This document shows positions 7,066 through 50,283 of a stretch of DNA of 64,000 nucleotides, piece after piece. Numbering within the stretch: position 1 is the stretch's first letter; each line of letters starts with the position of its first letter. The stretch is taken from the NCBI RefSeq assembly GCF_005886805.2, contig NZ_CP045430.1, positions 992,001-1,056,000 of the forward strand, in the 5' to 3' direction. Origin of the DNA: Pseudoalteromonas rubra (lineage in GTDB: Bacteria; Pseudomonadota; Gammaproteobacteria; Enterobacterales; Alteromonadaceae). The notes below the pieces were generated by a model, which ran no database searches, was not told where the DNA came from, and saw only the letters and a program-made list of their open reading frames with translations. The position numbers and the translations under genes were made by a program.

Positions 7066-7182
7066 CTATATTCCTTATAAATCTGTCAAGATTCCCCTCA
7101 TGTCGGCGCCAAACAGGTTTGTTTTTCACTGTATTTTGACATATGGTTATAATTGGTGTGAAGACCTTCATTGGGATAAAAA

Positions 7183-7524: not shown

Positions 7525-7827
7525 CACTGACATGGCGTCAAAGAATTTCAAAAACCTAGAGGGACATAATCGCAGACACCCACCATATCATTATTACCGC
7601 GGACACGGCAGGTTCAACTTGGAAGTGCACAAGCTACAAGTGGCTGTGCTTTCAAAACATACCAAGGGTGAGTGTCCTCCAAAAATCAATCGTATCCGGG
7701 TGAAAAATCACAGGCATTGGCTTTGCCGTTGATATAGCACAAATGTGATTCGCGTAGCTTGCCTCTGAATGTGCTAGAACAATACCGCGATTCTGTAACC
7801 TGGCACCTGATCCGAGCAACTTAGATT
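7525..7827. other. Gene-poor gap with possible coding remnant
   Basis: No convincing gene. One plus-strand frame (about 7567-7695) reads 'DIIADTHHIIITADTAGSTW', which echoes the 3' end of the preceding gene (ADLRHVIITTAN) and may be a decayed second copy; it has no start or ribosome site. Confidence 0.25.
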
Positions 7828-8205
7828 TTATTCAAGCTTGTCACATGATGTACTGAGATTATGATTTATCTGTTTTATAAATCGTAGAAAGCCAGTGTCT
7901 GTTTTATAACTTACCGACACACAACCAGGAAATACAGTAACTGAAAAAGCAGAGCTATGATAAGTTGCACCTGCAATTTGCGTATTCCAGTCTCTCATCC
8001 AACCTCTGGTATTTGAATGGAGCCAGTCAACTATTTCACTGTACTCAGGGTCTGCGCCCGTTATGACTTTTCCGCAGTATTGAAACGCGTTAGGAATAAA
8101 ACCAACTTCAACCTGTTGACCTCGAAAATAAAGTAGATATCCTGTCGTTGCTGCTATCAGCACCAGTACGAACAATCCGGTTACTATTTTCACCAAAATA
8201 TTCAT
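7828..8205 (-). CDS. Hypothetical membrane-anchored protein, 125 aa
   Basis: A single N-terminal hydrophobic segment (about 5-27, uncleaved anchor or signal) is followed by a ~95-residue periplasmic domain containing three Cys (Y-C-G, P-G-C-V, T-S-C-D) and aromatic motifs such as 'RGWMRDWNTQ'. I recognise no family. It lies 28 bases after the TonB-like gene on the same strand and may be co-transcribed. Confidence 0.6.
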   Translation of the reverse strand: MNILVKIVTGLFVLVLIAATTGYLLYFRGQQVEVGFIPNAFQYCGKVITGADPEYSEIVDWLHSNTRGWMRDWNTQIAGATYHSSAFSVTVFPGCVSVSYKTDTGFLRFIKQINHNLSTSCDKLE

Positions 8206-8233
8206 AGCACAGCTGTGAGCTTATTTTTCATTG

Positions 8234-8602
8234 CTACAGCTCAAAGCTTACTTTTTGAGGCAACATAAATTCCATTGTTAATGCGTAACCTTTTAAACCA
8301 CACTTAGAAAAGCCATCTCTGGGTAATAGAGGTGTGAATTTTGAGCGTGCGATCATATCCAAAACAACCGATTTTGGTACTTCCATTGGTTGAATGTCCG
8401 TAATGACGATCTTCTCAATTTTTCCCCTGTAGTCTACGTCCAGCTCAAATGAGACTTCACCCATCATGAGCCTGCTCGAGAATTCTTTTTGGAATTTGGG
8501 AATTGCCTGATGGGAAACCTTCAGTGCTAAATCTTTATCGCATGGAATACATGCTAATGTGGATAAACTCACGAATGACATCAAAAATAAAATGAACCTC
8601 AT
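8234..8602 (-). CDS. Secreted TonB C-terminal-like domain protein
   Basis: 122 residues with a Sec signal peptide (1-17, ending TLA-C, so lipidation at C18 is possible). The body resembles the TonB C-terminal fold: 'GEVSFELDVDYRGKIEKIVITDIQP' followed by 'LDMIARSKFTP', the usual strand-strand-helix order. It lacks the cytoplasmic/membrane anchor and Pro-rich linker of true TonB, so it is a stand-alone periplasmic TonB-like module, not the energy transducer itself. Confidence 0.65.
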   Translation of the reverse strand: MRFILFLMSFVSLSTLACIPCDKDLALKVSHQAIPKFQKEFSSRLMMGEVSFELDVDYRGKIEKIVITDIQPMEVPKSVVLDMIARSKFTPLLPRDGFSKCGLKGYALTMEFMLPQKVSFEL

Positions 8603-8738
8603 AAATGACCTCTTGGCATAACCATGTTGTCACTGGCAAAATGTGGCTTTCTGACAACCTGCAGTTTGACCACAACAACCTCAATTCCTATGTGAATTTA
8701 CTTACTTCACCCAAAAAACCTTTGTATTTACTGAACCA

Positions 8739-9158
8739 TTAAAACTCTACACCAACGATCAGCTCGATAGGAAACTCTCTGTCTTCCTGGCATACAGCTA
8801 AAAAGAGGATGTACTCTTCTTTCTCCCAAATTACAGAATAAAAAGAGCAGGGGACATAAAAGCCCTCGTCGTCTTCCTCAGCGAGATAACCTCCCTCTTC
8901 TTCGTTTTCTTCTGCATCATCAAAAACAGCCAAATCATCGACTATTTTAGGCGTGCCAAATTCAACTTTTAACTCGTTTTCAAACTGACCTAGTAAAACT
9001 GAATATTCTCTCATGATCGAAGCTATCAGCTGGTCATCATGTTGCTCATCTTCTTCCTTTAAATACCGTGACTTGACAATTTCATAGTCAGCCGTATTGG
9101 CTTTTATTAGACCATTAACCAAGTTAGTTATGTCTTCTGGGATATTACACTCTTCCAT
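8739..9158 (-). CDS. Acidic hypothetical protein, 139 aa
   Basis: A very acidic soluble protein; residues about 70-100 are almost all Asp/Glu ('FDDAEENEEEGGYLAEEDDEG'-like). No signal peptide. A TTTAAAGGAA-type ribosome site precedes the ATG. Small acidic cytosolic proteins beside other orphan genes are often immunity proteins, but nothing here names a partner toxin. Confidence 0.55.
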   Translation of the reverse strand: MEECNIPEDITNLVNGLIKANTADYEIVKSRYLKEEDEQHDDQLIASIMREYSVLLGQFENELKVEFGTPKIVDDLAVFDDAEENEEEGGYLAEEDDEGFYVPCSFYSVIWEKEEYILFLAVCQEDREFPIELIVGVEF

Positions 9159-9294
9159 AAACTATTCCTTTAACCTTCAAGCACAACGCCCACATTAAGT
9201 ATCCACCATAGGTATCAAAAAACTGGGCACTTACTGACAACACCATTCTAAAAATCAACGGTTATTAAGAATTATGACATTGATATCAATTCCA

Positions 9295-9669
9295 TTATTT
9301 TGACTCTCGCCAGGCTTCAATGGCAGTAGCCAAGTCAAACTCATTTCTGAAATTGGATTTTCTGCGAGAATAAGCTCCGGGATTGAAAGCGACACTTTCA
9401 GCCAACTCTACGATAAACCCACGACCAAAACTCTTGTAAGAAGCGATTTCTGTTTGAGTGAGCTGAATATCAACGTTAAACATCGCGACACCACCGCAAA
9501 GAACAGTTAAATACATGTCATTTTGATTCTGGAATAATAACCACGACCAGTTTTCTTCATCTACAACAAACATATCACCTCTGATGTTCATCACACTTTC
9601 ACAAGCTAACCATATCAACCAGATGTTGCGCATGAGCCAAATGAAAATACCAAGCGGCGAATTGTCCAC
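9295..9669 (-). CDS. Hypothetical protein, 124 aa (start uncertain)
   Basis: The longest frame uses a GTG at 9669 without a ribosome site; an ATG at 9591 (MNIRGDMFVVDEENWSW) gives a 98-residue protein and may be the real start. The core ('LTVLCGGVAMFNVDIQLTQTEIASYKSFGRGF' region) looks like a soluble alpha/beta domain. No known family recognised. Confidence 0.5.
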   Translation of the reverse strand: MDNSPLGIFIWLMRNIWLIWLACESVMNIRGDMFVVDEENWSWLLFQNQNDMYLTVLCGGVAMFNVDIQLTQTEIASYKSFGRGFIVELAESVAFNPGAYSRRKSNFRNEFDLATAIEAWRESK

Positions 9670-9695
9670 CGATTTTAATGCACATTAACTCATGT

Positions 9696-10013
9696 CTAGT
9701 CCGATATGCCATGCAACATTTCACCTTTATCCAGGGCATAACCTATTGCAGCTAAAAGCTTGTGCAATAGGTGTCTTTCCCCATCAGACAAGTCACTAAT
9801 AAGCAGTACACCTAATTCAGTTCTGGCCTGACGCAGCTCAACAATAGAAAACTAGCTATCGCTAAACTGATCACACATCCTTCTCAGAAAGAAGTTATCT
9901 GACTTCTTAAGCAAAGCATATATTAACGGATACTCACTGAAACAAATCGAGGCCACAATGACAGGAGCGTCCTTAACATATTTACTTTTTCCAACAGCCA
10001 GATCGTACGCCAT
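9696..10013 (-). pseudogene. Hypothetical gene with in-frame amber codon
   Basis: From an ATG at 10013 the minus strand encodes 53 residues (starting MAYDLAVGKSKYVKDAP), then TAG at 9852-9854, then 51 more residues in the same frame (FSIVELRQARTELG...) to a TAG at 9696. Both halves have protein-like composition, so this is best read as a 105-residue gene broken by one nonsense codon. Family unknown. Confidence 0.55.
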
Positions 10014-10324
10014 GACTTAGTTTTCCTGTCTTACTGATGAATGAGAAAAAAGGACAGCCACCTGAAATCAATACAGCCACTTTAATGTACTTTTTTGGCC
10101 CAGTTTTCATCAAAACTTGAAAGTAACATCAATAAACGCGTTTTTATGTGCATCAGTGCCAGAAGAATGCAACTTCTTACCGAGCTTTTCGGTCATTTTT
10201 GCGAGGCCAAAACCAGGAGCTCTGAATTAGCAGGCGCGCAACAGCAACATATCGTTTAAACTGAGTCATTCATATGCTCAACTGCCGCGAACGCCAACCC
10301 TGATAAGTCGTAATCTACAATTTA
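10014..10324. other. Gene-poor gap with short coding debris
   Basis: No intact gene. One minus-strand frame (about 10120-10225) reads 'APGFGLAKMTEKLGKKLHSS' with no start codon and a stop just upstream; it may be the tail of a lost gene. Confidence 0.3.
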
Positions 10325-10648
10325 CTAGTTTGTGAAAATACCAATAAAGTTTGCTCCGCCACACTCATTGTTTGAATAATTGTGTATTCTGATCTTCTTC
10401 CCACTCATTGCCGCTGCGAGGGCAATTGAAAAAGCTTGGTTGTAAGACTGCTCGGATTGTGACTGATTGGCAGGAAACTCAACAGATCCGTTTGCACATG
10501 GACCTGTTCCTCCACTTAACTTAACGTAAAACACATCTTTATTACCACTGGAGCTAGCGACTTCAGTAATTACCGCATTCCTTACCAACTCCCCTGCTCC
10601 ACTAAAAAAAGGAGCCAAAAACAAAGCCGCACAGATTAAATGTCTCAT
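10325..10648 (-). CDS. Small secreted protein of the 'AA..SGK' family, copy 2
   Basis: The start is taken at the ATG at 10648 (MRHLICAALFL), because AAAGGAAAA lies just upstream and a signal peptide begins there; the frame itself opens at 10717. The mature domain has 'FSIALAAAMSGKKIRIHNYS' and two Cys (one mid-chain, one late), matching the family described at 7183. Exported, function unknown. Confidence 0.7.
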   Translation of the reverse strand: MRHLICAALFLAPFFSGAGELVRNAVITEVASSSGNKDVFYVKLSGGTGPCANGSVEFPANQSQSEQSYNQAFSIALAAAMSGKKIRIHNYSNNECGGANFIGIFTN

Positions 10649-10847
10649 ATATTTTCCTTTAAAACTAACGTATTCATCAACGACGAATGCCTGAATGACT
10701 TCTTTACCGCGAAGCAACTAGCGAAAAATAAGCCAGAGAGTAGGACATCGTTTTGACGACACTTGTTATCTGCTATTAACTTCCGCATTATTAATCGCGA
10801 ACACACCAGATATGTCACATAGTTAAGCGCTGCTTAACCTCTATTTT

Positions 10848-11162
10848 TTAACTAGAGTAGATTAACTTAAATTCAATCCGCTTATTATCAAACTCATTTA
10901 ATATCCTGATTTTCAATTTCTCAACATCCTTTTCTTGCCATGAGTTAGCAGAAATAACTACCATTACTTTACTACTCGTTATTTTCTCTCGTATTTTACC
11001 AATATACGCTTCAATGGAAGGTTGAGGTGTTCGTGCTCTCATGAGCCCTTTTTCTGCGAGCCTTATATGCACTTCAGATACAGGAAGCGTTTCTGGTTTA
11101 ACAAACAGTGAAAATAAAAACAAACACAATACCAATGTAGAAAAATAGAGTACTGGTTTCAT
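10848..11162 (-). CDS. Hypothetical membrane-anchored protein, 104 aa
   Basis: The start is placed at the ATG at 11162 behind GGGGAAA. One N-terminal hydrophobic stretch (about 3-20) is followed by a charged ~80-residue domain ('SIEAYIGKIREKITSSKVMVVISANSW') with helix-strand alternation. No family recognised. Confidence 0.55.
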   Translation of the reverse strand: MKPVLYFSTLVLCLFLFSLFVKPETLPVSEVHIRLAEKGLMRARTPQPSIEAYIGKIREKITSSKVMVVISANSWQEKDVEKLKIRILNEFDNKRIEFKLIYSS

Positions 11163-11431
11163 AAAATTTCCCCTGACAAAAGACAGCAAACCGCCAATTT
11201 CCTAATTTGCTTTGCCGCTCCATCACGACTCTCTGTCTGAACAGCACTTTTGTACCCATTAAACTTGTTTTCTGCCTGTTTTACAAGGGACCGAAGCACT
11301 ATAGCTGATCAACTATCTCTGCAATTTGAAGGTTACACATCACCACGAACATTCAGTGTAAATCTTTAGCTGCAACTCCCTGCACATGCTTTTGATGCCG
11401 CTTTTTAATGTGGCCACATGGCGCAGATAAA

Positions 11432-11454
11432 AGCCAGCCTATCGCAGGCTGGCT
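11432..11454 (-). terminator. Rho-independent terminator of the lyase gene
   Basis: A 9-bp perfect stem (AGCCAGCCT / AGGCTGGCT) with a 5-base loop is followed on the minus strand by TTTTATC, starting 10 bases beyond the lyase stop. Confidence 0.8.
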
Positions 11455-11463
11455 CTGGTTGGG

Positions 11464-14394
11464 CTACTGAACCTTGCTCAGACTGACTGCCATCGGTTGA
11501 CCAAAAAAGCTGGTTGCATGAATTATAGTGTCACCTTTGTGATGGGTATAATGCGTATCTTCAGTGGTCCAGGTGCCTTTCACAACCACTTCAATAGGTA
11601 CACTCTGAGTCGGACCATTTTTGTCCAGCTTAAGCTCAGGTGATGCTACGCTCAGCGATGCTGAATCTCCATTAAGCTGGAGTAAAAGCTGCGCTGTGGT
11701 GCTGACAGTTCGTACCGGCCCATACTTAAAGTGGGTCACGCCAGTGCTGCTGTAGCCATACAGGTTGTTGACCCGATTGCGAATATACATGCCATTTTGA
11801 TCCGTTTTACGGGTATTGAAATACGGATACCGGGCCATTTTTTTCGCCAACACTTGCATTTGCTCAGGCGTGGTGTCCATCACCATCACATATTCGTAGT
11901 GTGCATCCAGTGGCGCAACGCCATGATCTATCCAGGCAGTTGTGAACAACCCTTGTGTTGCGGCTTTGGTTTTATTGTGACGCGAGCTTTGCATTGTACG
12001 AGACACATGTACTGACTCTGCCTGCTGTAAAAAATAACCCACGCCGTTTTCATCAATTAACCAGTCACCACTGCTTAATGTTACAGAAAACGCTTCTCCC
12101 ACGTAACGCTTCCCATTGATCCACACGGGGCGGTTTATGTCCTTGACCGCCAACTGAAACAAAGTGGTTTCGGTGCGGTTTTGGCCATCTTTATTCGAGA
12201 TGCCATTGCCAGCCAGAAACAGCATGTCATCAGCGGCCATCACGTGTTTTTCAGCTACAAAGCTGGCATCAAACTTAGCTAAGTTTTCAGGTGCCTGATG
12301 TTTGAAGGTAAACAAGCTGAATTTATCATGCAGCGAAGTTGCACCACTGATCCCTTGCTCTGAGCGCAAAGTTAAACTGTGCTTATTCGGGCTTTCCAGC
12401 GCATCATAATCAAGATGGATTGTGGTCGTACCCGGATTACGACTCCAATCCCAACCGGCTTGCTGGTAGCCAAAAGCTTCTGGGTCACCATAGGGCATAA
12501 CATGCACGCTGCCATGGCTTTGATAACGGCCATAGCGGTTGTCTTTATAGTAAATTTCCGATGACCAGACATCTTTGTTGTACCCTTTGATCATCGCCAT
12601 CCGCTCGCCATGACGATGCACCACAAACGCGCCGCCATTAAAACTCCAGCTGCCTTCTGGTAATTTTGCGGGTGTGATGGTCTGGCCAAATACAGATTGG
12701 CTCTGTGCCTCAGGCGTTTGACTCACTTGCAAGTAGATGGCCGCCAGCTCTTCATCGAGCGTAGGATATGCCATGGCCAGGTCACGTAATCCGCCCTGGT
12801 AATGCATGATCCCCAATTTGCTAAACGGATGTCGCCCACTCAACGCCATCGGCACAAAGGGGTTTGTATAACGCCAGCCAGCCACCATGACGGCTTTAAG
12901 GCTGTCTAATGCCTCTATGTTCAGAGAGAATGGGGTGTCTTTTAGCACTTTAGCCACCTGAGCGGCACGTTTGAAGGCATGAAACGCATAGCCCGGATAG
13001 TGACCGCGATGGCGCCAGGCCGTGCCATCCGGCCTGAAACCGTCATGGTAGCCGGAAGGTGTCTGACTCAGCGCTGCTGAAAAAAAAGCAGTAAACTTTT
13101 TGAGCAAGGCAATACGTTCTTTCACGTCCGGGTTTAACAATATCAGTGCCAGGTGCTGATTTGACAGCGTATTAAAGTAATCCAGATCGGAGCTTTCATC
13201 ATTAAGCTCCATGTCAAAGCTTGACTTAAACTCTCTGGAGAACCACAACAAAGCACGATAAGTAGGCTTCAACAAAGCGTCTGATTGTAACGTATCAGCC
13301 ATCATCAACGCCGAAATATACCACCAACGCGCACCATAGCCCCAGTGATGGGTGGTCACCAGACTACTGCCATCAGCATAGCCTTGGTCAATTAAATGCG
13401 CCGTCATCAAACGGTACATATTTGCAAGTTCCGTTTTATGTGCATCATAAATAGGGTGGTGATAAGCCTTAGCCAAATCCCACATCAGTTTTGTGTAATC
13501 AGCCAGTTGACGATACTCATCGAATGCAGCTCTGTCTTGCACCAAGAGATGTTTAGGTTGATAAATGGTTTTCTGGTATCCGGTAACAATATGCCGACCC
13601 GTGATCACATTATCCTGACTTTTCTCGATTTGATAGGCGTTAAACCGCTGTTGTAAAGACGCAAAACTACCCGGGCGACCCATAAACTGCGCGGTGAGGT
13701 TTTGTCTCAGCTGAGCAGCACCTTTCACTTCAACATCACTTGGCATCTCCAGGTGAACAGGTAAATCAAAGTCTATTTCCGGCAGGACATAGCGGGTTGT
13801 CACCTGGTCGTCTGACCATTGATAACGTTTGTCATCGACCGACACCATAATACGGTCGATATATATCGGCGCAGCATCATGGTTGACAGAAGCAGGCGCT
13901 GTAAATACCAACTTTTCAAATGAGGACGTGACCACTTCAGAAAAGTCCTTATTAAGTGAAACACCAATTGTGCGCCAGCCAGTAAAATTCATATTGACGT
14001 TAAGCTCACTGATCTCCTGGCCATCTTTATCCGACAAGGTCAGTGCCATACTATCTTCAACGGCTTGGGGGTTATAAATCCAGAATGACAGCACTTGGGT
14101 TGCACCCCGACCATAGGCCCGACTGGCTTCTTTATCCGTCATCCGCTTAAAAGTGTGGTTGACCGACAATGTGGGCGACGCCCCCCAGTGCCACAATAAG
14201 GACTGCTCACCATGGATAGACCGTGTTTGTGAGAGTTCAGCGGCACTTGCCTGTACATATTCCGGGATTCCTTTTCCTTCAAAACTCAGTATCTGTGACT
14301 GTAAATCGTGCGCAACCGTGTTCGCTGATACGCCTAGAGCAGTAATAGGCAAAAGAAAGCGAGTTAGATGAGCAACATAAGTGTTCTGAAGCAT
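11464..14394 (-). CDS. Chondroitin sulfate ABC-type lyase (polysaccharide lyase family 8)
   Basis: A secreted eliminase for chondroitin/dermatan-type glycosaminoglycans. The start is chosen at ATG 14394, which begins a signal-peptide-like stretch (MLQNTYVAHLTRFLLPITALG); the frame extends to a GTG at 14448. Numbering from that GTG, the four residues corresponding to the Proteus vulgaris ABC lyase I catalytic set are present: H480 and Y487 (WRHRGHYPGY), R539 (SGRHPF) and E631 (WSSEIYYKDNRYGRY). The N-terminal jelly-roll, the alpha-toroid with 'VTTHHWGYGARWWYIS' and the C-terminal beta-sandwich domains are all present at full length. No sulfatase, transporter or other polysaccharide-use gene adjoins it. 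Confidence 0.93.
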   Translation of the reverse strand: MLQNTYVAHLTRFLLPITALGVSANTVAHDLQSQILSFEGKGIPEYVQASAAELSQTRSIHGEQSLLWHWGASPTLSVNHTFKRMTDKEASRAYGRGATQVLSFWIYNPQAVEDSMALTLSDKDGQEISELNVNMNFTGWRTIGVSLNKDFSEVVTSSFEKLVFTAPASVNHDAAPIYIDRIMVSVDDKRYQWSDDQVTTRYVLPEIDFDLPVHLEMPSDVEVKGAAQLRQNLTAQFMGRPGSFASLQQRFNAYQIEKSQDNVITGRHIVTGYQKTIYQPKHLLVQDRAAFDEYRQLADYTKLMWDLAKAYHHPIYDAHKTELANMYRLMTAHLIDQGYADGSSLVTTHHWGYGARWWYISALMMADTLQSDALLKPTYRALLWFSREFKSSFDMELNDESSDLDYFNTLSNQHLALILLNPDVKERIALLKKFTAFFSAALSQTPSGYHDGFRPDGTAWRHRGHYPGYAFHAFKRAAQVAKVLKDTPFSLNIEALDSLKAVMVAGWRYTNPFVPMALSGRHPFSKLGIMHYQGGLRDLAMAYPTLDEELAAIYLQVSQTPEAQSQSVFGQTITPAKLPEGSWSFNGGAFVVHRHGERMAMIKGYNKDVWSSEIYYKDNRYGRYQSHGSVHVMPYGDPEAFGYQQAGWDWSRNPGTTTIHLDYDALESPNKHSLTLRSEQGISGATSLHDKFSLFTFKHQAPENLAKFDASFVAEKHVMAADDMLFLAGNGISNKDGQNRTETTLFQLAVKDINRPVWINGKRYVGEAFSVTLSSGDWLIDENGVGYFLQQAESVHVSRTMQSSRHNKTKAATQGLFTTAWIDHGVAPLDAHYEYVMVMDTTPEQMQVLAKKMARYPYFNTRKTDQNGMYIRNRVNNLYGYSSTGVTHFKYGPVRTVSTTAQLLLQLNGDSASLSVASPELKLDKNGPTQSVPIEVVVKGTWTTEDTHYTHHKGDTIIHATSFFGQPMAVSLSKVQ

Positions 14395-37401: not shown

Positions 37402-37682
37402 AATTTCCTAGGAAGGGCTAACAATTTATTCTACCCCATTATGTCGGAACATAAACTGACATAACGGGTTGTATTACATAACCTAATGGTCCAACGGAAT
37501 AAACTCGATGTAAACAACATGTTGCGACTATAAAAGTCGCAGCCATGTGAAATTTGGACACATTGGGGCGTAATAATATTATTGAATAATAGCCCAAGAA
37601 CTGTCTATACATCCAGTGTATTTTGCTTGGACACCCGCCCTCAATTAGTGTGCCTCAGGAAACTGCTGTGTTGTATGTCAAT
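37402..37682. other. Possible cassette-array start or leader
   Basis: GGCTAAC (37416-37422) precedes an inverted repeat CCCATTATGTC ... GACATAACGGG (about 37436-37472), perhaps a further, divergent attC. No gene and no integrase. Confidence 0.35.
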
Positions 37683-37995
37683 AGATTCAGGCTTGCAGGC
37701 GTCCAGGATGACGGTAGGGTTTGTGAGTTCGACAGCAAAGAATCACCTCTGTGCCGCACATTAGTAGCTCCCGACTTGCAGACGTTCGGGATTACGGTGT
37801 GGTTTGTAAGTTCGGCCGTAACGGAGTACCTCTGTGCCGCACGTTAGTAGATCCCGGCTCACAAGCGTCTGGGATGACGGAGGGGTTTGTGAGTTCGACT
37901 GCAAAGGGAAACCGCTGTGCCGCACATTAGTAGCTCCCGGCTCGCAGACGTCCAGGATGACGGTAGGGTTTGTCAATTCGACAACCACTTTGCCC
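37683..37995. repeat. 83-bp REP-like tandem repeat (about 3.7 units)
   Basis: Units begin at 37683, 37766, 37849 and 37932, exactly 83 bases apart. Each has a dyad of the form ATCCCGGCTCGCAAGCGTCCGGGAT, then GACGG..GGGTTTGTGAGTTCGAC and CTGTGCCGCACRTTAGT. Related copies occur at 38556-38672, 40918-41020 and 47783-47820. Confidence 0.85.
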
Positions 37996-38555: not shown

Positions 38556-38672
38556 TCTGAGTCATTACGCAGTGTCTGGGGTGACGCTGGGGCTTGTGAG
38601 TTCGGTTGCAACGGGGTGTTACTGCATCGCACGTTGGTAGATCCCGGCTCGCAAGCGTCCGGGATGACCGAG
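38556..38672. repeat. 83-bp REP-like repeat, dispersed copy
   Basis: One and a half units, with the palindromic core at 38640-38666. It lies downstream of the small secreted gene. Confidence 0.75.
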
Positions 38673-38820
38673 GTGGATGCCGTTTTGAGAAAAAGTTCTA
38701 GTTTTGAAGTAGAAGTTCGGCCATGTCAGGTTTGACTGCCAGGTCGGTACTCATTCAGACACTGTGTCGCATTGAATTTGGTGCTATCTGATAAAAATGC
38801 GCCAATTCTTTAATCCGCCG

Positions 38821-40764: not shown

Positions 40765-40917
40765 GATGCAAAATTCCGTGTTAACAACTGTCGTGTAAGA
40801 TAACACAATACTGATCTCCAGTAATACCTAACCAGTTTGACGGGTTGGATAACAGCTGAGTTACGGCTGGGTTGGTAGGGTTCGCGACTAAAAGGAACCA
40901 CAGTATTGCTGGTCAGT

Positions 40918-41020
40918 AGATCCCGGCTCGCAAGCGTCCGGGATGACAGTGGGGTGTGTATGTTCGGATGCAACGGAGCACCACTGTGCCACACGTTGGT
41001 AAATCCCAGTTCACAAACAA
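40918..41020. repeat. 83-bp REP-like repeat, dispersed copy
   Basis: Palindromic core at 40918-40946, next unit start at 41001, again exactly 83 bases later. It flanks the upstream side of the Cys-repeat/YcaO cluster. Confidence 0.8.
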
Positions 41021-41177
41021 CACCTCATGTAATCTGAGCAACACAGATCATGCATACCTGCCGAACGTTATTTTTGTGTAATAGGATGTAATAAAATTTG
41101 GGAAACCTTGCTGATACACTCAAAGACTGTTGAAAAATTAATCTACCGATAATTTTACACAGCAAGGAAAGTAAACC
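41021..41177. other. Promoter region of the YcaO cluster
   Basis: Between the last REP-like unit and the first cluster gene; ends with AAGGAAAG ahead of the ATG. No distinctive operator seen. Confidence 0.35.
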
Positions 41178-42296
41178 ATGAGTAAGCAAGACCCCATTGC
41201 GCAATTACAAATTGAAATCGCGCAACTTCAATCAGCATTTGAAGATCTGAACAAACACTGTTCTGAAACCAATACCCACGGCGCCATATTACGCTGCGCC
41301 TCATGCATCCCTCAGCAGCTTAACTGCACAGACAAGCCCACTAACCCGCAACAGCCTAATTTTGTGCCAGATTTTAATGTGCCGCTCATTGCAGCCGGTG
41401 GTGGCGATCAAAACTGTGAGATCCTTGAAAAGCTCGGGCCATTGGCCGGGTTAATTGGGACCTGGGTTAGCACACGATACGGGGGATTTAATGTTATGCC
41501 GATCCCGCAAGATAATGCCCCGAATGGCTTCATCTTAAAAAATATCCCCTACTACGAGGTCATGACCTTTAGCGCGATTCAGGGCAAAGTGGCTAACCGG
41601 GCGGGTAATTACGAGCAAGATGCCTACACCATTTTTTATTCGCAACGGGTATTTTTTGCCGATGGCCCGCAAAAAGATGAGCTCGTCCATGCTGAAAATG
41701 GCAGCTGGTTACATCAGGTGATTGCACCTCAGGGGCAAGGTACCCTGAACAAGAAACCCTGGGTGCCGGATACCCCCGATCCGCTCCCGGTGCAAGCACC
41801 GGACCTGACTATTGTAAAACAAGTGTCTGTACCGCATGGAAATTCAATTCTGGCTATTGGAGGGCACGATTGTTTCAGAGGTGCGCCCAACATTCCTGTT
41901 GCCAATGCCCTGCCCACGGCTGGCGGTGCGAGCTTTAAAGTCCCTTATGGTCCTGATATTCCTGAAAACCCCAATGTGAACCCCAACATTGTGCTGCAAG
42001 TTGCTTTAGACAGTCTTTACCAGCAAGGCATAGGCGTGATCGACACCACAGTGCTGGATGTCGATACGCAAGCCGACGGCAATATCGCCAACACGCCCTT
42101 TATGCAAACGCACTCCAATGTGCCTCGTTTTAAAACCACTATGTGGTTAGAGCGACTATCCAATGGCCAGAATATGCTGCAGTACAGTCAGGATATTACG
42201 TTGGACTTTAGTTTAATAAACGGCAAAGACCCCAGCAAACGAAGCCGTTACATGTTTCCACACATAACGGCCAACACCCTGTTTAAAGTGCAATAA
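41178..42296 (+). CDS. Heme-binding/nitrobindin-like beta-barrel protein with leader-like N-terminus
   Basis: 372 residues. From about 80 on, the sequence ('KLGPLAGLIGTWVSTRYGGFN', later 'VSVPHGNSILAIGG' and 'MWLERLSNGQNMLQYSQDITLDF') resembles nitrobindin/FABP-like heme-binding barrels. The first ~43 residues are different: a helical stretch and clustered Cys (C28, C40, C43, C50) that align with the start of the Cys-repeat protein encoded next (MS-K/E-Q, ..I..LQ.., L.S, C, CA-x-C). It could be a partner enzyme bearing a leader tag, or itself a substrate of the cyclodehydratase. First gene of the cluster, ribosome site AAGGAAAG. Confidence 0.7.
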   Translation: MSKQDPIAQLQIEIAQLQSAFEDLNKHCSETNTHGAILRCASCIPQQLNCTDKPTNPQQPNFVPDFNVPLIAAGGGDQNCEILEKLGPLAGLIGTWVSTRYGGFNVMPIPQDNAPNGFILKNIPYYEVMTFSAIQGKVANRAGNYEQDAYTIFYSQRVFFADGPQKDELVHAENGSWLHQVIAPQGQGTLNKKPWVPDTPDPLPVQAPDLTIVKQVSVPHGNSILAIGGHDCFRGAPNIPVANALPTAGGASFKVPYGPDIPENPNVNPNIVLQVALDSLYQQGIGVIDTTVLDVDTQADGNIANTPFMQTHSNVPRFKTTMWLERLSNGQNMLQYSQDITLDFSLINGKDPSKRSRYMFPHITANTLFKVQ

Positions 42297-42436
42297 GTTC
42301 CCTATTGCAATGTGATGAATGTGTCTTTTAAAGACATGCTGTTTGCCACTTATGACATGTGCGGCAAGCAACAAACCTAGGTTGTTTTTGGTACTCGATA
42401 CCAATAACACAATAAACTTAACTTAAGGAAAGTATG

Positions 42437-43501
42437 ATGAGCGAACAAGCTATCAAAGAACTTCAGTTACAGGTAACTGAGCTCACCTCAAAAGTCAAAG
42501 CACTAGAAGCACGCTGTAACCCGTCTGGCATTGCCGACTGTGCTGTATGTTACTACTGCACACCTTGTGCTCCATGTGCCGCACCAACAATCCTGTGTGT
42601 CCCGTGCACTACCACACTATGTGCAACCTGTGCACCTGTTGGTACTAGCTATCAGCCGCTGGGCCCACCTACCCCCTGTGTAGCCTGCATACAATGTGAG
42701 ACGACCCATAAGTGTGTAACCTGTGAGCCAGTTACTAACTGTGTCACTTGCTATCCCTGCATTGTTAATTTCTGTGCACTATATCAACCGGGCCAGACTC
42801 TGCAATGTCAGCAATGTGCACCTGTCACTCAATGTGATACTTGCTACCCTTGTATTGTTAACTTCTGTCAGCAATGCGCTCCAATCACGCAATGCGTCTA
42901 CTGCTATCCATGTACCGTTACCCTCTGTCAACAATGTGAGTCTGTCACTAAGTGTGATACTTGTTATCCATGTATTGTGACTTTCTGTGTTATGTGCCAG
43001 CCAGGTCAAAACGGGCAATGCCAGCTATGTGCCACCAGAAAGTGCGAAACCTGTTATCCGTGCATCGTTAACTTCTGCCAGCAGTGCCAGCCGGTTACCA
43101 AGTGTGACACCTGTTACCCATGCACTGTGAATTTCTGCGCTTTGTGTCAAACGGAACAAAAGGCACATTGCCAGCAGTGTGCACACATCACCAAATGTGA
43201 TACCTGCTACCCCTGTGTGGTGAACTTCTGTGCGCAGTGTTATCAGTGTGCGTCTCAATGTGTGCAATGCGCTCAGCAGTGTCTTCAGTGCACTTATCAT
43301 TGTGCTCAGTGCACCCAACAATGTGTGCAGTGTGCTCATCAATGTCTTCAATGCACCCACCAGTGTTTGCAGTGTACCCATCAATGCGTTCAGTGTACCC
43401 AGCAGTGTTTGCAGTGTACTCATCAATGCGTTCAGTGCACCCATCAGTGTGTGCAGGGTTACCAATGCGTAACATGCACACCATGCAGCACCGGCGGCTA
43501 G
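42437..43501 (+). CDS. Giant Cys-repeat protein, candidate azoline RiPP precursor
   Basis: Start at ATG 42437 (AAGGAA 6 bases ahead); an ATG sits 3 bases earlier. Numbered from the earlier ATG, residues 1-27 are a charged helix (leader-like). Then come about 77 Cys (hand count) in 355 residues. Residues about 103-268 hold seven units of C-x-x-CYPC-x-V-x-(F/L)-C with interposed CxxC. Residues about 272-341 hold about nine 7-residue units C-x-Q-C-(T/A)-(H/Q)-Q. It ends CSTGG. No signal peptide. Its position before a YcaO cyclodehydratase makes it the probable substrate, with many Cys to cyclise. Alternatives: a metal-binding Cys protein; this explains the leader and context less well. Confidence 0.75.
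   Translation: MSEQAIKELQLQVTELTSKVKALEARCNPSGIADCAVCYYCTPCAPCAAPTILCVPCTTTLCATCAPVGTSYQPLGPPTPCVACIQCETTHKCVTCEPVTNCVTCYPCIVNFCALYQPGQTLQCQQCAPVTQCDTCYPCIVNFCQQCAPITQCVYCYPCTVTLCQQCESVTKCDTCYPCIVTFCVMCQPGQNGQCQLCATRKCETCYPCIVNFCQQCQPVTKCDTCYPCTVNFCALCQTEQKAHCQQCAHITKCDTCYPCVVNFCAQCYQCASQCVQCAQQCLQCTYHCAQCTQQCVQCAHQCLQCTHQCLQCTHQCVQCTQQCLQCTHQCVQCTHQCVQGYQCVTCTPCSTGG
42740..43240 (+). repeat. Coding repeat array 1 (CYPC units)
   Basis: Seven approximate repeats of the motif ACYPC-x-V; spacing alternates about 24-51 bases. The array encodes residues about 103-268 of the Cys-repeat protein. Confidence 0.75.
43247..43456 (+). repeat. Coding repeat array 2 (21-bp units)
   Basis: About nine to ten 21-base units of the type CAGTGTxTxCAGTGYACYCAT (18-21 bases), encoding C-x-Q-C-T-H-Q. 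High DNA similarity suggests recent expansion. Confidence 0.8.
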
Positions 43502-43513
43502 CACGCAGTTATT

Positions 43514-43542
43514 GACACTCCCCGCTTTGTGCGAGGAGTGTC
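43514..43542 (+). terminator. Hairpin between precursor and cyclodehydratase (possible attenuator)
   Basis: Stem GACACTCC / GGAGTGTC with inner CGC/GCG pairs and a small loop, 12 bases after the precursor stop. It is not followed by a T-run, so it may only partly stop transcription or mark an mRNA processing site, giving more precursor than enzyme. Confidence 0.5.
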
Positions 43543-43565
43543 TTAAGAAATTGGATGTTTAATTT

Positions 43566-45998
43566 ATGAAAAAGCTAAGATTGACCCCGGCTGCGAGCAT
43601 TAATCCCAACAGCAATGGTGTGTTATTAAGTTCAGATTTGGGAGACTTCCAGATTCACGGTCGCGATACCTCCGACTTTGTTGAAAAAATCCTGCCATTG
43701 CTTAAGGGAGAGCTGACACAGGCTGAAATTTGCACCCGTTTACCTGAATATGGGGATGCAAGTATTGAGGCCGTGCTGCAACTGCTCAGCCAGTATGGTT
43801 TGTTGGAAGAAGTCTCTGAACAACTTGAATTTCAACCGCCCGGTTTAGTACAAACCCGCTTTTTACGCCCCTGGCAGCAAGCAAGCCAACAACCACACAG
43901 CCAGGACCAGGTATACTCTCTTGATCCCTGCCGGGTACTCGTTATCGGCCTTGAACCCTGGGCTGTCACGCTACTGGAAGAGCTGGGTACTGCGGGTGTC
44001 GGCCATGTTCATTTATTAGATAAAGAAAATATCACCAACGACGATTTAACATGCCACCGCTTTCTCACGCCACAAGACATTGGTAAACCCAGAGCACAGG
44101 TCTTTACAGCGGCACTGCAACAGCGCAACCCCTGGATGCAGATCAGCCACTCTGAGCTCACCTGCGATAACCCCCAGTTAGGCAGCCCATCAAATGACTG
44201 GGATTTAGCCATTGTCACGTTAAGTAAAGATGCCCACTTTTGGTCGCATAAAGTCTCTGAATATGTGCATCAGCACACGATTAAAACACTTTATGGCCAC
44301 CTCGACGGCCTGGAGAGCTGGATAGGTCCGGTGGTCAATTTAGATGACACCACCTCAGGCTCATGCTGGAACTGCTTAAGACTCAGAAAGCTGGGCACAG
44401 AACAACACGGTGAGCTTGCACATGAATTAGAAAAAAGCCTTAAAAAGAATCGTGACGGCCGTGCCCGCAGTATGCTTACACCTATGTCTGCCATCACAGG
44501 CCAACAGCTTGCCATGGAGGCATTAAAAATCCTCTGGGGCTATAGCGAAAGCGAACTGGTATCGCGTGTCATGGTACAAAACCTGGTTACGCACCAGGCA
44601 GAAAAACATGCCATTATCCCTATTCCCTGGTGTGATGTTTGTGGTTTTGATCATAGCAATATGAATACCCACGCGTTATCCATGCACCGAGATACCCATT
44701 CTGCCACTAACCCGCTAAATCAACTCCAGGATGTTGAGCAATTTAAATCGCTATTTGAAGGCTGGGTCGATCCCCTCACAGGGATCGTCCGCCAGCTCAC
44801 GGGACATGCGCCACATTTACCTGACTTCCCGATCACAGCATCTGCCGGGGTATCCTCGTTTACGGAGGGCGAATTTGACCCAAGAGCCTCAGGTCAGGTT
44901 GGCTCAGGTAAAGGATTGGATACTATTTCAGCGCATATTAGTGCCGTCGGTGAGGCTCTGGAGCGCTACTCGGCGGCCAGATACAAATTGAGTGATTGCA
45001 AATATGCCTCAATTAGCCAGTTAAACGGTGACTATGTCGATCCGGATACCTTAGTGTTGTATTCCAATAAACAATACAGCACGCCTAATTTCCCGTTTCA
45101 CAAATGGCACAGAAAACAAAAAATACACTGGTGCCGCGGCAACTGGCTGGCAACCAAAGAGCCTGTCTGGGTACCGGCATTGGTTAGCTATTTTAACTTT
45201 GCCTGCCCTTATAAAGAGCAGTTTAGTCAGGTGTCATCAAATGGGCTCGCGGCTGGCCAAAACAACGATGATGCTGCACTCAGAGCCTGTTATGAACTCA
45301 TAGAACGCGACGCTATGATGCTCACCTGGTATGCACAGCTGCCCTGCGAACGTCTCAGTTACGAGGCACTAAACCAGGGAAAAATGCGCGTTATGATTGA
45401 AGAACTAACTGAGCTGGGCATTGAGCTCGAATGCTACTTACTGGATGTGGGATTACACGTACCAACGGTCGTGTGTTTAGCGCTGGGAGATGGCTATCGC
45501 ACCCCTGCAGTCTCAGTGGCCCTGGCCACGCATGGAGATATCAAAGTAGCCATGCGCAAAGCATTGCTAGAACAAGGCCATGTAATGCCTTATCTGTGCC
45601 AGTTAATGCGCTCTGGACAGGCAATTCCTCAGCAAGTCAGTGACGTAACAAGCCTGGAAGATCACGCGGCCTATTATTTTAGTAAAAGCAAACTCGCGGC
45701 CTTTGACTTTATGCGCCGACCCATCAGCGAGGCGAAAACGCTGGAAGACTGGCCGTATGAGGTGATCACACACGTCGGCCAGCTTAAGCAACGCCTGGAT
45801 ACAGCTGGGGTCGAAGTCGCCATTGTGGATGTTACCTCACCAGATATGGCACTCAGCCCGTTCAGGGTTGCGCGTGCTATTGGTGTCAACATGCAACCCA
45901 TTCACTTTGGTGAGCAATTTAAACGGGTAGACAACCCAAGGCTGCGCAAATTGTTGCAAGGGCGGCCGGTTAACCAAGAGCCACATCCAATTGCTTAG
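43566..45998 (+). CDS. Fused E1-like/YcaO azoline cyclodehydratase
   Basis: 810 residues, the length class of PatD/TruD/LynD enzymes. Residues 1-90: winged-helix-like leader-binding (RRE-like) region. 120-360: ThiF/E1-like domain ('VLVIGLEPWAVTLLEELGTAG', 124-144) with a zinc tetrathiolate C267/C270 and C356/C359. About 400-810: YcaO domain with the ATP-site motif S459-x-x-x-E463-x-x-E466-R ('ISAVGEALERYSA') and 'AGQNNDDAALRACYELIERDAMM'. The C-terminus ends PHPIA, near the PxPxP seen in azoline enzymes. It should turn Cys (or Ser/Thr) of a leader-bearing peptide into azolines using ATP. It begins 65 bases after the Cys-repeat gene. Confidence 0.92.
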   Translation: MKKLRLTPAASINPNSNGVLLSSDLGDFQIHGRDTSDFVEKILPLLKGELTQAEICTRLPEYGDASIEAVLQLLSQYGLLEEVSEQLEFQPPGLVQTRFLRPWQQASQQPHSQDQVYSLDPCRVLVIGLEPWAVTLLEELGTAGVGHVHLLDKENITNDDLTCHRFLTPQDIGKPRAQVFTAALQQRNPWMQISHSELTCDNPQLGSPSNDWDLAIVTLSKDAHFWSHKVSEYVHQHTIKTLYGHLDGLESWIGPVVNLDDTTSGSCWNCLRLRKLGTEQHGELAHELEKSLKKNRDGRARSMLTPMSAITGQQLAMEALKILWGYSESELVSRVMVQNLVTHQAEKHAIIPIPWCDVCGFDHSNMNTHALSMHRDTHSATNPLNQLQDVEQFKSLFEGWVDPLTGIVRQLTGHAPHLPDFPITASAGVSSFTEGEFDPRASGQVGSGKGLDTISAHISAVGEALERYSAARYKLSDCKYASISQLNGDYVDPDTLVLYSNKQYSTPNFPFHKWHRKQKIHWCRGNWLATKEPVWVPALVSYFNFACPYKEQFSQVSSNGLAAGQNNDDAALRACYELIERDAMMLTWYAQLPCERLSYEALNQGKMRVMIEELTELGIELECYLLDVGLHVPTVVCLALGDGYRTPAVSVALATHGDIKVAMRKALLEQGHVMPYLCQLMRSGQAIPQQVSDVTSLEDHAAYYFSKSKLAAFDFMRRPISEAKTLEDWPYEVITHVGQLKQRLDTAGVEVAIVDVTSPDMALSPFRVARAIGVNMQPIHFGEQFKRVDNPRLRKLLQGRPVNQEPHPIA

Positions 45999-46013
45999 AA
46001 AAAGGATAATATT

Positions 46014-46985
46014 ATGAAAGTACTCCTTTGTGGTACCCACTATGGTTCCACGTATATTCGCGCTTTAACTCAGTTTCCACAAGACAGCTTCACCTGTGTG
46101 GGTGTCCTGTCAAAAGGCAGTGAACATTCTCAACAGATCGCACACCAACTGGGTGTGCCTTATTACACTGATGTCAGTGCAGTTCCGGCTGACTCTATTG
46201 ATATCGCATGTGTCGCAGTATCGGGCGATGCGGGTCAAGCCATTGTCTTATCTTTGCTAAAGCAAGGCGTTTCTGTGTTGTGTGAGCACCCCGTTGACCA
46301 GGCGTTTGTACAAAAAGCACTGGCACTAGCCGAGCAGCACCAGGTGTATTTTCACGTCAACGGGCACTTTGCCGACCTCTACGCTCCTCAGGCATTTTTA
46401 CAATCCATCCTGAACGCGTATCAACAAGGGTTTGGTTGTATGCACTATGCCATGGGTGCCAATTTAAGAACGCTTTATTCAGCGCTGGATCTGTTAGGCC
46501 GTGCATTGGGTGGGTTTGAAGGACTCGAGGTCATCAAATACAACGGCAAGCCAATGGCGTTTCAGCCTGTCATGCTCAAAACCGACAGCCTTACTGTCTC
46601 TGTCTTATGCCAGAACTTTTCGTCTGCTGAAGATGACGGCAGCGCTACTTTTTTAAACCATCAGTGCTCTGCGCTATTTCCGCATGGTACTTTAACACTC
46701 AGCGAAACCACAGGCCCGTTAAGCTGGTTTCCTTCAAGCCAAAGCCTGCCGAGTGAAACATGGCGAACCTATATGCCTGTTGAGCTTGTCCCCATGGACA
46801 AACAGCAATTAATGACCCACAGAGATCAGTGTAACCTCAACGCCATTGCGGCATTGGCAGCCACAATACAAGGCGAAACACAGCCGCTATATCAGCAGCC
46901 AGATTATTTATCAGCATTAAGCGGGTTATGGCAGGCAGTATTAATGGAATTACAGCCCCAGGCCAAAGACGACTGCGCTGCATAA
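46014..46985 (+). CDS. Thiazolinyl imide reductase-like (Irp3/PchG) oxidoreductase
   Basis: 323 residues, Gfo/Idh/MocA-type Rossmann protein. The N-terminal NAD(P) fold ('VLLCGTHYGSTYIRAL', 'GVLSKGSEHSQQIAHQLGVPYYTD', 'VSVLCEHPVD') lines up with the yersiniabactin/pyochelin enzymes that reduce a thiazoline ring to thiazolidine. Of the two proposed acid residues of Yersinia Irp3 (H101, Y128), the first is kept as H92, but the second aligns to F119 (next to H118). Starts 15 bases after the YcaO gene, so it is co-transcribed. Here the substrate is more likely peptide-bound thiazoline than a siderophore intermediate. Confidence 0.85.
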   Translation: MKVLLCGTHYGSTYIRALTQFPQDSFTCVGVLSKGSEHSQQIAHQLGVPYYTDVSAVPADSIDIACVAVSGDAGQAIVLSLLKQGVSVLCEHPVDQAFVQKALALAEQHQVYFHVNGHFADLYAPQAFLQSILNAYQQGFGCMHYAMGANLRTLYSALDLLGRALGGFEGLEVIKYNGKPMAFQPVMLKTDSLTVSVLCQNFSSAEDDGSATFLNHQCSALFPHGTLTLSETTGPLSWFPSSQSLPSETWRTYMPVELVPMDKQQLMTHRDQCNLNAIAALAATIQGETQPLYQQPDYLSALSGLWQAVLMELQPQAKDDCAA

Positions 46986-48108: not shown

Positions 48109-50283
48109 ATGAAACCAAGCAATACACTGGCGCTGCTGTTGGCAGGTGCGGTAGCAACATCTTGCCTATCATTTGCAGTAAGCGCCGCAATAGAAACCGA
48201 TGATGAGAAAGTCACCCGACTGGATCTGCAAGGGCAGATAGACAACTTTGCGCCATTTTCTAAAACCTTGTGGGCCGGGGCGCACAATGCCTATGCCTCA
48301 CATGCCTGGAGCAAAGGTACCTATACCGACGTCAATCAATACTATTCACCCAAAAGTCTGCTTAAGCGCGGCATTCGGGTAATGGAGTTTGATATCTATC
48401 CGGAAGGCACCTTTGATTCAACCCCTATGCTGTGTCACAACTCACTGGAAAATAAAGCTATTTGCTCCAGCTTTCACGCTAAGTTGTCGGAAGGGTTAGA
48501 CGACATAAAAGACTTTCTGAAAGACAACCCGGACGAGGTTGTTTTACTGAAGATCGAATCATACAAGCATAACGACCATAAAAACTGGCACAACAAAATT
48601 GGCGAACGTCTGGAAAAAGACATCGGCGACTATCTGCTGATGCCGTCGGACTGGGGCTATGCCGATAAGAGCTGTGCATCCTTGCCAGTGTCGCACCTCA
48701 CCAAACGCGACATTCTGGCTGCGGGTAAGCAGCTGGTTGCCGTAGTGCAAACCCCCAGAGATCACAGCAATTTGTGCTCCTATCACAGCAGCGGTAGCTA
48801 CTCCAAGTTCTGGAACACCGTGTTTATCGGCGTAGATGCCTTTGATGCCAATGGTAACCTGCAAAGCAATCAGCCATTTTGTCAAAACGGCAGCAATGAG
48901 TGTGTAAATGGCGACCAAACCGCACATTACCTTGCCAACAATATGACAGTGATCATTGATGGCGCGACTCAGCTCAACCCGGATGGCCCGAGCTCAAGTA
49001 AAACCGGTAGCAATGTGATCAGCAAGTGGGCTAACAAAGGCGCGCAAATTCTCGAACTGGCGCTGGTCGAGGCCAATAACACCAGTGCTGCCAGCGGCTA
49101 TGGTGCCAATGAGGTCCAGATTGAGGACTTTATCTGGTCATGGAAATCAAACCGACCCAATGGCTTTGGTGACTGTGCGAGTCTCGAAAGCGACGCTGCA
49201 ATTGTCGACAAAGCCTGCTCCACTTATCAGTACCATGCTTGTGTGGATGACAACCGCAACTGGCAGCTGACCACCAGCAAAGGCAGCTGGGACATGGGCT
49301 TTGCGAACTGTCAGAGCCTGGGCGGCAGCTATCAGTTTGCGATGCCATTCAACGCCTATGAACATGTTCAGCTGCAAAACGCCATCGGCAACAGTTCAGA
49401 GCACCATTGGGTGAACTATTACAAGGCATTCAACTCTTTCTGGTTGTCTAACTCTGCTGAATATATCGACTGGCAGTACGTGAAAAACAACGCAATAGGC
49501 TCGACCAGTAAAGGCAACGCCTTCAACGATATTGCTTTATTAAAGCGTAAAGCTCTGGTGGGCGGCACCTTTAACCTCAGCTCAGTACGGGTTCGCTCAA
49601 ACAATCGGGTGGATGGGTTTCAGGCTTGTTACGAGACCAAACAAAGCCTGTCACATGCTAGTGTGGGCACATCCGAGTTGTGTGTTACTTACGGTGGCAG
49701 CGGCGGTAGCTGGGGCAATAAACTGACCTTTGATACCAGCAAAGGCGAGCATCTGAAGAGTCTGCAGATCTGTAAAGACGATGGCAAATATGGCTACGAT
49801 ACCGTGTACTACCTGAAGCTGACTTCCAGCAATGGCAATTCGGTCAAAGGGGGGACAGCCTCTGGCAGTTGTACAACCTACTCAGCCAGTGCCAGCCAAC
49901 AATTGTTTGCCTTTCATGGCACCGAGAATAAAGAACTGAATTCACTGGGTGTTTACCGTATCGCCAGTTCACAGGTCAACGGCGGCCTCTATGCAACAGG
50001 CTGGCTTGACCGCGATGACCCGGCCAGTGGTGATAACGAGCTGTTCAGCTCACACCAGTCTGCGGGCAACATTGCAGCCAGTTGCAGCACCAATGATGTT
50101 GCAGGCGTCGTTGCGCGAGTCAAAGGCAGCAAGCTGGACTCAAACCTGAGCGGGCAAAACCTGGTCAACAACAGCTCTGGCTTTGCCTGCTGGAACTCCA
50201 GCAATGGCGGGAACAGCAGTTACACCACCTGCGAAGACTATGAAGTGAGATACTTTTTTACCAAGTCGAGCTGTTTGCCGTAA
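48109..50283 (+). CDS. Secreted PI-PLC X-domain-like protein with lectin-like C-terminus
   Basis: 724 residues, signal peptide 1-26. Residues about 45-340 resemble the bacterial phosphatidylinositol phospholipase C barrel: H59 in GAHNAY, E93/D95 in MEFDIY, H110 in LCHNS (the His-His pair used in catalysis), then 'DEVVLLKIES'. Residues about 365-500 ('WDMGFANCQSLGGSYQFAMP') look like a C-type-lectin-style or similar disulfide domain. About 510-620 ('VTYGGSGGSWGNKLTFDTSKGEHLKSLQIC') resemble a jacalin-like beta-prism. Likely a secreted phospholipase binding surface sugars; the substrate is not proven. Confidence 0.8.
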   Translation: MKPSNTLALLLAGAVATSCLSFAVSAAIETDDEKVTRLDLQGQIDNFAPFSKTLWAGAHNAYASHAWSKGTYTDVNQYYSPKSLLKRGIRVMEFDIYPEGTFDSTPMLCHNSLENKAICSSFHAKLSEGLDDIKDFLKDNPDEVVLLKIESYKHNDHKNWHNKIGERLEKDIGDYLLMPSDWGYADKSCASLPVSHLTKRDILAAGKQLVAVVQTPRDHSNLCSYHSSGSYSKFWNTVFIGVDAFDANGNLQSNQPFCQNGSNECVNGDQTAHYLANNMTVIIDGATQLNPDGPSSSKTGSNVISKWANKGAQILELALVEANNTSAASGYGANEVQIEDFIWSWKSNRPNGFGDCASLESDAAIVDKACSTYQYHACVDDNRNWQLTTSKGSWDMGFANCQSLGGSYQFAMPFNAYEHVQLQNAIGNSSEHHWVNYYKAFNSFWLSNSAEYIDWQYVKNNAIGSTSKGNAFNDIALLKRKALVGGTFNLSSVRVRSNNRVDGFQACYETKQSLSHASVGTSELCVTYGGSGGSWGNKLTFDTSKGEHLKSLQICKDDGKYGYDTVYYLKLTSSNGNSVKGGTASGSCTTYSASASQQLFAFHGTENKELNSLGVYRIASSQVNGGLYATGWLDRDDPASGDNELFSSHQSAGNIAASCSTNDVAGVVARVKGSKLDSNLSGQNLVNNSSGFACWNSSNGGNSSYTTCEDYEVRYFFTKSSCLP

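Follow-up and report, generated by a model that had tools for sequence, protein, structure and literature searches.

A 64,000-nucleotide stretch of the Pseudoalteromonas rubra genome (contig NZ_CP045430.1, positions 992,001 to 1,056,000; hereafter the window) contains four plus-strand genes that belong to a conserved operon. Our interpretation, to which we assign a probability of roughly 60%, is that the operon encodes a pathway for a ribosomally synthesized and post-translationally modified peptide (RiPP), in which a predicted YcaO enzyme forms thiazolines on a leader-bearing Cys-repeat protein and an Irp3-like protein then likely reduces them to thiazolidines. An initial annotation had proposed these four genes, and open reading frames (ORFs) together with Pfam and NCBIfam profiles confirmed their presence and positions (Table 1). 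The intergenic gaps are 137, 64, and 15 bases, in gene order, when the Cys-repeat gene is taken from the beginning of its open frame (42434-43501); the start common to its relatives is the second ATG, at 42437. The genome consists of two contigs (5.94 Mb), and the window reductase was 94% identical to that of its nearest named relatives, on P. rubra contigs.

Table 1. Features of the operon, with positions numbered within the window.
Feature	Position	Strand	Details
FMP-type, nitrobindin-like haem-protein homologue, 372 residues	41178..42296	+	gene 1
Haem-protein homologue, leader-like helix at the N-terminus (residues 5-28)	41190..41261	+	11.0 bits, leader profile
Imperfect palindrome TTGGTACTCGATACCAA preceding the Cys-repeat gene	42388..42404	+	conserved block, alignment of 6 relatives
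Cys-repeat protein, predicted precursor, 354 residues, 78 Cys	42437..43501	+	gene 2
Leader-like N-terminus of the Cys-repeat protein, conserved, 26 residues	42437..42514	+	leader alignment, leader profile
Tandem array in the core, CxxC-rich units, period 42	43234..43456	+	Tandem Repeats Finder: 5.3 copies, 78% matches
RNA hairpin in the gap from precursor to YcaO gene	43514..43542	+	z-score -4.56, 70-base stretch
E1-YcaO fusion, predicted azoline-forming cyclodehydratase, 810 residues	43566..45998	+	gene 3
YcaO domain, residues 447-768	44904..45869	+	PF02624, 212 bits
Irp3-like reductase, predicted thiazoline reductase, 323 residues	46014..46985	+	gene 4

The four genes were found to travel together. 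Among 108 genomes of the genus, the reductase was identified in 14 (E 1e-20), and a separate alignment-based search (E 1e-60) placed the YcaO protein in 12, which were exactly the 12 genomes with an operon-type reductase. The other two (G025 and G104) carry a different system, a TOMM kinase/cyclase cluster, as identified by a profile run on G025. In 11 of the 12 operon genomes (the window, L018-L023, and L025-L028) the four genes were contiguous and in the same order. In the twelfth, G030 (L024), a contig ended 186 bases upstream of the YcaO gene and an operon-type haem-protein homologue lay near the end of another contig (L080), an arrangement that fits a break inside the repeats. A pattern-based scan of species genomes with the reductase alignment as query identified 17 loci, nine of them in Pseudoalteromonas genomes already counted. 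The other eight were from two Shewanella, Undibacterium, Marinomonas, and metagenome-assembled genomes of a Methylococcaceae member, a gammaproteobacterium, a Lysobacterales member, and the alphaproteobacterium Hellea, and in all eight the YcaO gene was directly upstream of the reductase gene. The Methylococcaceae contig starts inside the YcaO gene, and the upstream frame on the Lysobacterales contig is Cys-rich (118 residues) and interrupted by the contig end; the remaining six loci all have a full Cys-repeat gene, which a haem-protein homologue adjoins in five, on the opposite strand in Hellea. The link between the YcaO and Cys-repeat genes postulated in the initial annotation withstood this comparison: a Cys-repeat gene was present in every locus of this type whose contig extends far enough. 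Because the 17 loci were all identified by their reductase, evidence anchored on YcaO is weaker beyond the genus: samples at order (394 genomes), class (369), and phylum level (398), which overlap in part, yielded no YcaO-family member besides the window's own.

The unit occurs in P. rubra, P. luteoviolacea, P. piscicida, Shewanella, Marinomonas, and Undibacterium, and the genes flanking it vary among lineages, which marks its edges. The YcaO protein and the reductase have diverged in parallel (r 0.98, Mantel p 0.0001, 14 loci). In addition, the window YcaO protein was closer to those of Undibacterium and Marinomonas (62% identity) than to the second type in its own genus (55%); the cluster has thus probably been transferred between lineages as a whole. 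A scan of viral contigs with the YcaO alignment found no relative, and none of 213 plasmid records with matches had one place covering 80% of the reductase. A protein search returned 106 YcaO relatives at E 1e-60, some from other phyla by name; homologues with 37-44% identity bore the names Acidobacteria, Thermoanaerobaculia, Gemmatirosa, Nannocystis, and Sorangium. At one distant match (L090, 27% identity), the ORFs in 20 kb included no reductase and none that matched the leader, which suggests that the coupling is a trait of this YcaO subfamily and not of YcaO proteins at large.

Several analyses indicated that the Cys-repeat protein is not the product of a chance frame. At 16 other loci the same position is occupied by a Cys-repeat gene whose leader can be aligned. 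The 17 full-length proteins range from 139 to 511 residues and from 32 to 131 Cys, with up to about 130 Cys in that of P. aurantia, where a 60-base unit is present in 12.8 copies; short natural forms include those of Hellea (139 residues) and P. piscicida (208 residues). Their first ~26 residues are alike across genera, with conserved Leu/Val residues and the core (I)KELQLQVTELTSKVKELE, whereas the repeats differ. Over the first 142 residues of six close relatives, each of the 15 pairs showed 20-60 synonymous and 6-24 nonsynonymous codon changes, with dN/dS values of ~0.04-0.06 in the five pairs computed, and Cys columns were invariant more often (24 of 25) than other columns (81 of 117; Fisher p 0.005). 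The spacing of the Cys residues was also far from random: steps of three made up 57% in the window protein versus 14% on average and 27% at most in shuffles (n = 500), and 45-84% in each of the 17 proteins (shuffle means 13-15%). Pro followed Cys only four times among the ~1,080 Cys of the 17 precursors. We rejected a reading of these proteins as multihaem cytochromes, as His followed Cys just once in the same set. The window precursor matched no Pfam or NCBIfam family at E 1, and five other precursors matched no NCBIfam model at E 0.1 and no Pfam family either; the heterocycloanthracin precursor model, presumably part of NCBIfam, was among those unmatched by all six. A protein search with the leader only (residues 1-45) gave three candidates, none at E 1.

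The third gene was described in the initial annotation as a PatD/TruD-like E1-YcaO fusion, and the profiles agreed. Its product matched YcaO and ThiF (PF00899, 69.5 bits) and exceeded the cut-offs of TIGR03604 SagD (238.2 bits, cut-off 219.25) and the leader-binding domain TIGR03882 (59.4 bits, cut-off 36.9). The best solved relatives were TruD (E 6.6e-23) and LynD (E 7.7e-20). Like PatD, TruD, and LynD, it has an E1-like leader-binding part fused to YcaO and retains the ATP-site and Cys-pair residues; E463, E466, R467, N559, E577, E580, and R581 were invariant in all nine sequences. By these matches, the operon possesses the SagD-type YcaO protein and the C/E1-type leader-binding partner of azol(in)e RiPP pathways, and it has an adjacent precursor with a conserved leader and a variable core rich in Cys/Ser/Thr. 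A flavin mononucleotide (FMN)-dependent oxidase, a common but not universal component, was not seen: the SagB-type oxidase model TIGR03605 (E 0.001) had no match in nine of the 12 operon genomes, and in the other three it matched solely inside frames of 1296-3652 residues away from the operon, one of them over the cut-off, so that none of the 12 has a free-standing SagB-type gene. The genome of the window also contains a second, unrelated YcaO cluster (L031; G000:C2:494000-513900, about 1360-12489), with a TOMM kinase/cyclase fusion (TIGR03903, 752 bits), two YcaO proteins (31% matches, one profiled), and a protein that by eye resembles asparagine synthase.

The reductase matched GFO_IDH_MocA (72.6 bits) and, above its cut-off of 27, Irp3-like_C (PF21390, 38.4 bits). 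Its closest fold, by ~10 Z units, was that of Irp3, whose activity as a reductase of the thiazoline C=N bond we take from the PDB title and established knowledge. The assignment as an Irp3/PchG-like reductase was therefore upheld by PF21390 and the fold, but not by the family model TIGR01761, for which no protein of the 14 reductase genomes exceeded the curated cut-off (115.7-169 bits). At E 1e-8 the operon reductase was the only TIGR01761-type match in each of the 12 operon genomes, that of the window included. Taken with the leader profile and the lack of a free-standing SagB-type gene, the fold was in agreement with the proposal of a RiPP pathway in which a thiazoline-type reductase replaces the oxidase. 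When the reductase profile was applied to the 394 genomes of the order sample, it matched five, including that of the window. The other four reductases adjoin ORFs of 1014-2440 residues, which we read as nonribosomal peptide synthetases (NRPSs) from size and sequence, with heterocyclization motifs in one; two of the four are near-copies from the same genus. In the reductase tree the branches were long and the deep forks weak, and the presumed RiPP-type set was not one side of a branch (two changes), so no single origin is claimed. In the TOMM kinase/cyclase-type clusters of G025 and G104 (L029 and L030), an Irp3-like reductase gene is next to the YcaO gene, and these may represent a second RiPP context for thiazoline reduction.

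The haem-protein homologue, initially regarded as an upstream nitrobindin-like gene, does precede the others but is part of the unit rather than just a neighbor. It matched heme_bind_FMP (NF040572, 230.8 bits, cut-off 150), and scored below the cut-offs of the FMP-type peroxidase model NF040571 (66.6 bits, cut-off 300) and the THAP4-like haem-binding domain PF08768 (17.6 bits, cut-off 25). H362, near the C-terminus, is a candidate haem ligand. We built a profile from 11 distinct leaders and searched the 1019 ORFs of 21 loci with it. The top ranks went to the 16 Cys proteins, most of which had contributed to the profile; nine haem-protein homologues that are extended at the N-terminus came next (E 8e-5 to 0.029), ahead of an ORF at 0.49. 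In 10 of the 16 haem-protein homologues of the loci, including that of the window, a leader-like helix is followed by a few Cys, and CxxC is present in the window's group. FMP-type homologues are widespread in the genus (58 matches in 33 of 108 genomes, up to four per genome), with 46 of the 58 outside operons. In a control of 30 of these 58, the leader-like element was found in three of seven operon homologues (P. luteoviolacea type; the four of P. piscicida type were without it) and in none of the 23 outside operons (best E 38). In our reading, part of the family has a leader common to the precursor and the haem protein, and a haem-protein homologue with the helix could be either another substrate or a partner for docking.

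In the pathway that we propose, the leader-like helix would recruit the E1-YcaO protein and be bound by its E1 part. By analogy with its family, the YcaO protein would join each Cys to the carbonyl before it at the expense of ATP, forming a thiazoline; the sites modified would be Cys rather than Ser/Thr, and many rather than few of them. The reductase, as its fold and residues predict, would reduce the C=N bond with NADPH to yield a thiazolidine, and the reduced ring would be the end state. The interpretation given in the initial annotation was in this sense partly supported, its dozens of thiazolines and then thiazolidines remaining predictions. A further-reaching version, which we hold tentatively, is that the operon defines a poly-thiazolidine RiPP class, with dozens of Cys cyclized and reduced to secondary amines and, in some lineages, a haem protein that has the same leader and is itself modified. 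The preceding backbone amide would be cyclized and then reduced, producing a gene-templated N,S-ligand polymer.

Several observations weigh against the proposed pathway. The TIGR01761 score of the window reductase (154.3 bits) is below the curated cut-off of 188.8, and the Phe-Tyr pair of Irp3 (127-128) is replaced by His-Phe (118-119) in the operon reductase family, as a result of which catalysis may differ from that of Irp3. Neither a protease nor an exporter or third maturase belongs to the conserved unit. At one locus (L045), 6.6 kb of upstream sequence contained no haem-protein gene, and the leader-like helix is missing from six of 16 haem-protein homologues, including those of Marinomonas and Hellea. 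The helix pattern is heptad- or coiled-coil-like, and the leaders may owe some of their similarity to convergence. Lastly, CxxC prevails in the Cys-repeat proteins, with adjacent Cys in only 21 of ~1,080 cases, and plain metal binding would fit this too.

The last point is the basis for a different explanation, in which the Cys-repeat protein is unmodified and metallothionein-like and the YcaO protein and reductase act elsewhere, e.g., on the Cys stretch of the haem-protein homologue, which in the window's group does combine a leader-like helix with CxxC. We consider this unlikely, as all 17 Cys proteins have the leader-like N-terminus that six haem-protein homologues lack, and the Cys-repeat gene is present at L045, where a haem gene was not found. 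We also doubt that the reductase homologue is an NADP-dependent dehydrogenase that converts thiazoline to thiazole in place of the FMN-dependent SagB protein. There are many dehydrogenases in the GFO/IDH/MocA superfamily, and the 12 genomes have no free-standing SagB-type gene; nevertheless, the closest fold is that of a reductase acting on the thiazoline C=N, and thiazole formation takes its hydrogens from other ring positions (C4/C5).

It seems highly improbable that the reductase acts in trans in the synthesis of a nonribosomal siderophore and that its location in a YcaO operon is coincidental. Two novel thiazolinyl imine reductases were reported as essential for the thiazolidine of ulbactin in P. 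flavipulchra S16 (Gu et al. 2025, via PMC12819058, partial text), and one of these could be that of the operon, which in P. flavipulchra NCIMB 2033 (G034) is the sole TIGR01761-type match. Full-length matches to a heterocyclization-type NRPS domain (E 1e-38 or better) were present in six of the 12 operon genomes, but the other six, among them the window's genome and G034, had partial matches only, near 1e-11 to 1e-13, in a test with a single query domain picked by motif that diverged domains could escape. The exact co-occurrence and parallel divergence of the reductase with YcaO, and its residues, which are unlike those of reductases at NRPS-type loci, also argue against a siderophore role. 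We give very little credence, too, to the idea that reduction is a means of cutting, whereby the thiazolidine opens in water to an aldehyde and aminothiol, the chain is cleaved before Cys, and repeat units are freed as peptide aldehydes. 2-Substituted thiazolidines do equilibrate with aldehyde and aminothiol, and the unit is without a protease; yet yersiniabactin contains a stable NH-thiazolidine, and nothing in our analysis supports cutting directly.

If thiazolidines are indeed formed, the lack of a leader protease and exporter in the unit suggests that the product may stay in the cell, where it could be an N,S-ligand polymer for metal or haem, alongside the nitrobindin-like protein. We suggest, weakly, that it might take part in the handling of metal or haem or in defence against nitric oxide or peroxide. 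Metal chelation by RiPPs is represented by the bufferins, which bind copper (PMC12452194, partial text), although these are modified by MNIO (non-haem iron) enzymes and not by YcaO, and chelation by the operon product is our extrapolation.

Comparisons with other known systems also revealed differences. The operon departs from the cyanobactins in its giant Cys-repeat precursor and in having a reductase where an oxidase might be expected, and none of the four genes was read, from the ORF listing without protease profiles, as a cyanobactin protease. Usual RiPP precursors are far shorter and poorer in Cys. The terminal group of the aeruginosamides, which are cyanobactins, is otherwise known as a thiazole. 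The consulted text of PMC8878463 gives it as usually thiazolidine-4-carboxylate, with no reductase named there for this group. The heterocycloanthracins of the Bacillus cereus group resemble the operon in having Cys-Xaa-Xaa repeats as presumed thiazoline sites (PMC4603692, partial text), but the operon has a reductase, a haem-protein homologue, and up to 131 Cys, and six of its precursors match no NCBIfam model. In comparison with Irp3/YbtU and PchG of NRPS siderophores, the operon reductase has a YcaO protein as its partner and differs in NxHF instead of NxFY and at five further positions, besides its TIGR01761 score. The TOMM kinase/cyclase (TIGR03903) clusters of two genus genomes have a related reductase (24-27% identity, same NxHF) beside YcaO, but a different YcaO type, a kinase/cyclase partner, and no Cys-repeat gene in the stretches examined. 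Finally, unlike nitrobindin (Rv2717c and the C-terminal domain of THAP4), the haem-protein homologue is FMP-type; its domain is larger by ~120 residues, and a leader-like N-terminus is present at 10 of 16 loci.

The hairpin between the precursor and YcaO genes recurs, with z-scores of -3 or lower in eight of 10 other loci folded (L023, -1.8; L025, -0.9). Three of its 18 pairs were changed on both sides among six sequences, two of which were apparently identical. It may keep enzyme expression below that of the precursor. The palindrome had one match in the window at three or fewer mismatches (chance expectation 0.28), and a conserved TGTAAT direct repeat lies upstream of the haem-protein gene (41077-41092); both are possible regulatory sites. 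Dispersed and tandem repeat units with 83-base spacing (37662-37980, 38578-38673, and 40857-41035), comprising six copies of a 96-base match with 67-78% identity to the reference copy, were also observed, and one pair ends just upstream of the operon. Downstream, at 48109-50283, is a gene for a protein combining PI-PLC-X, jacalin-like, and mucin WxxW domains, with a signal peptide recognized by eye.

To our knowledge, azoline RiPP pathways either stop at the thiazoline or oxidize it, and a change of backbone amide to amine is otherwise typical of nonribosomal siderophores. The view in the initial annotation that no azoline RiPP pathway with a thiazoline reductase is known was consistent with our searches of the openly accessible literature (subscription papers lying mostly outside it), as YcaO in combination with thiazolidine or with a thiazolinyl, thiazoline, or azoline reductase in a RiPP led to no such pathway, and with a 2015 survey of azole RiPPs, whose main text, as consulted in part, has no reductase or Pseudoalteromonas (PMC4603692). 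The operon is a variant of YcaO RiPP pathways not met in that literature. If our reading is correct, a dedicated reductase would be a third fate of the thiazoline, by which backbone amides become amines in a ribosomal product, and the compactness of the unit and its presence in named strains make this chemistry directly testable.

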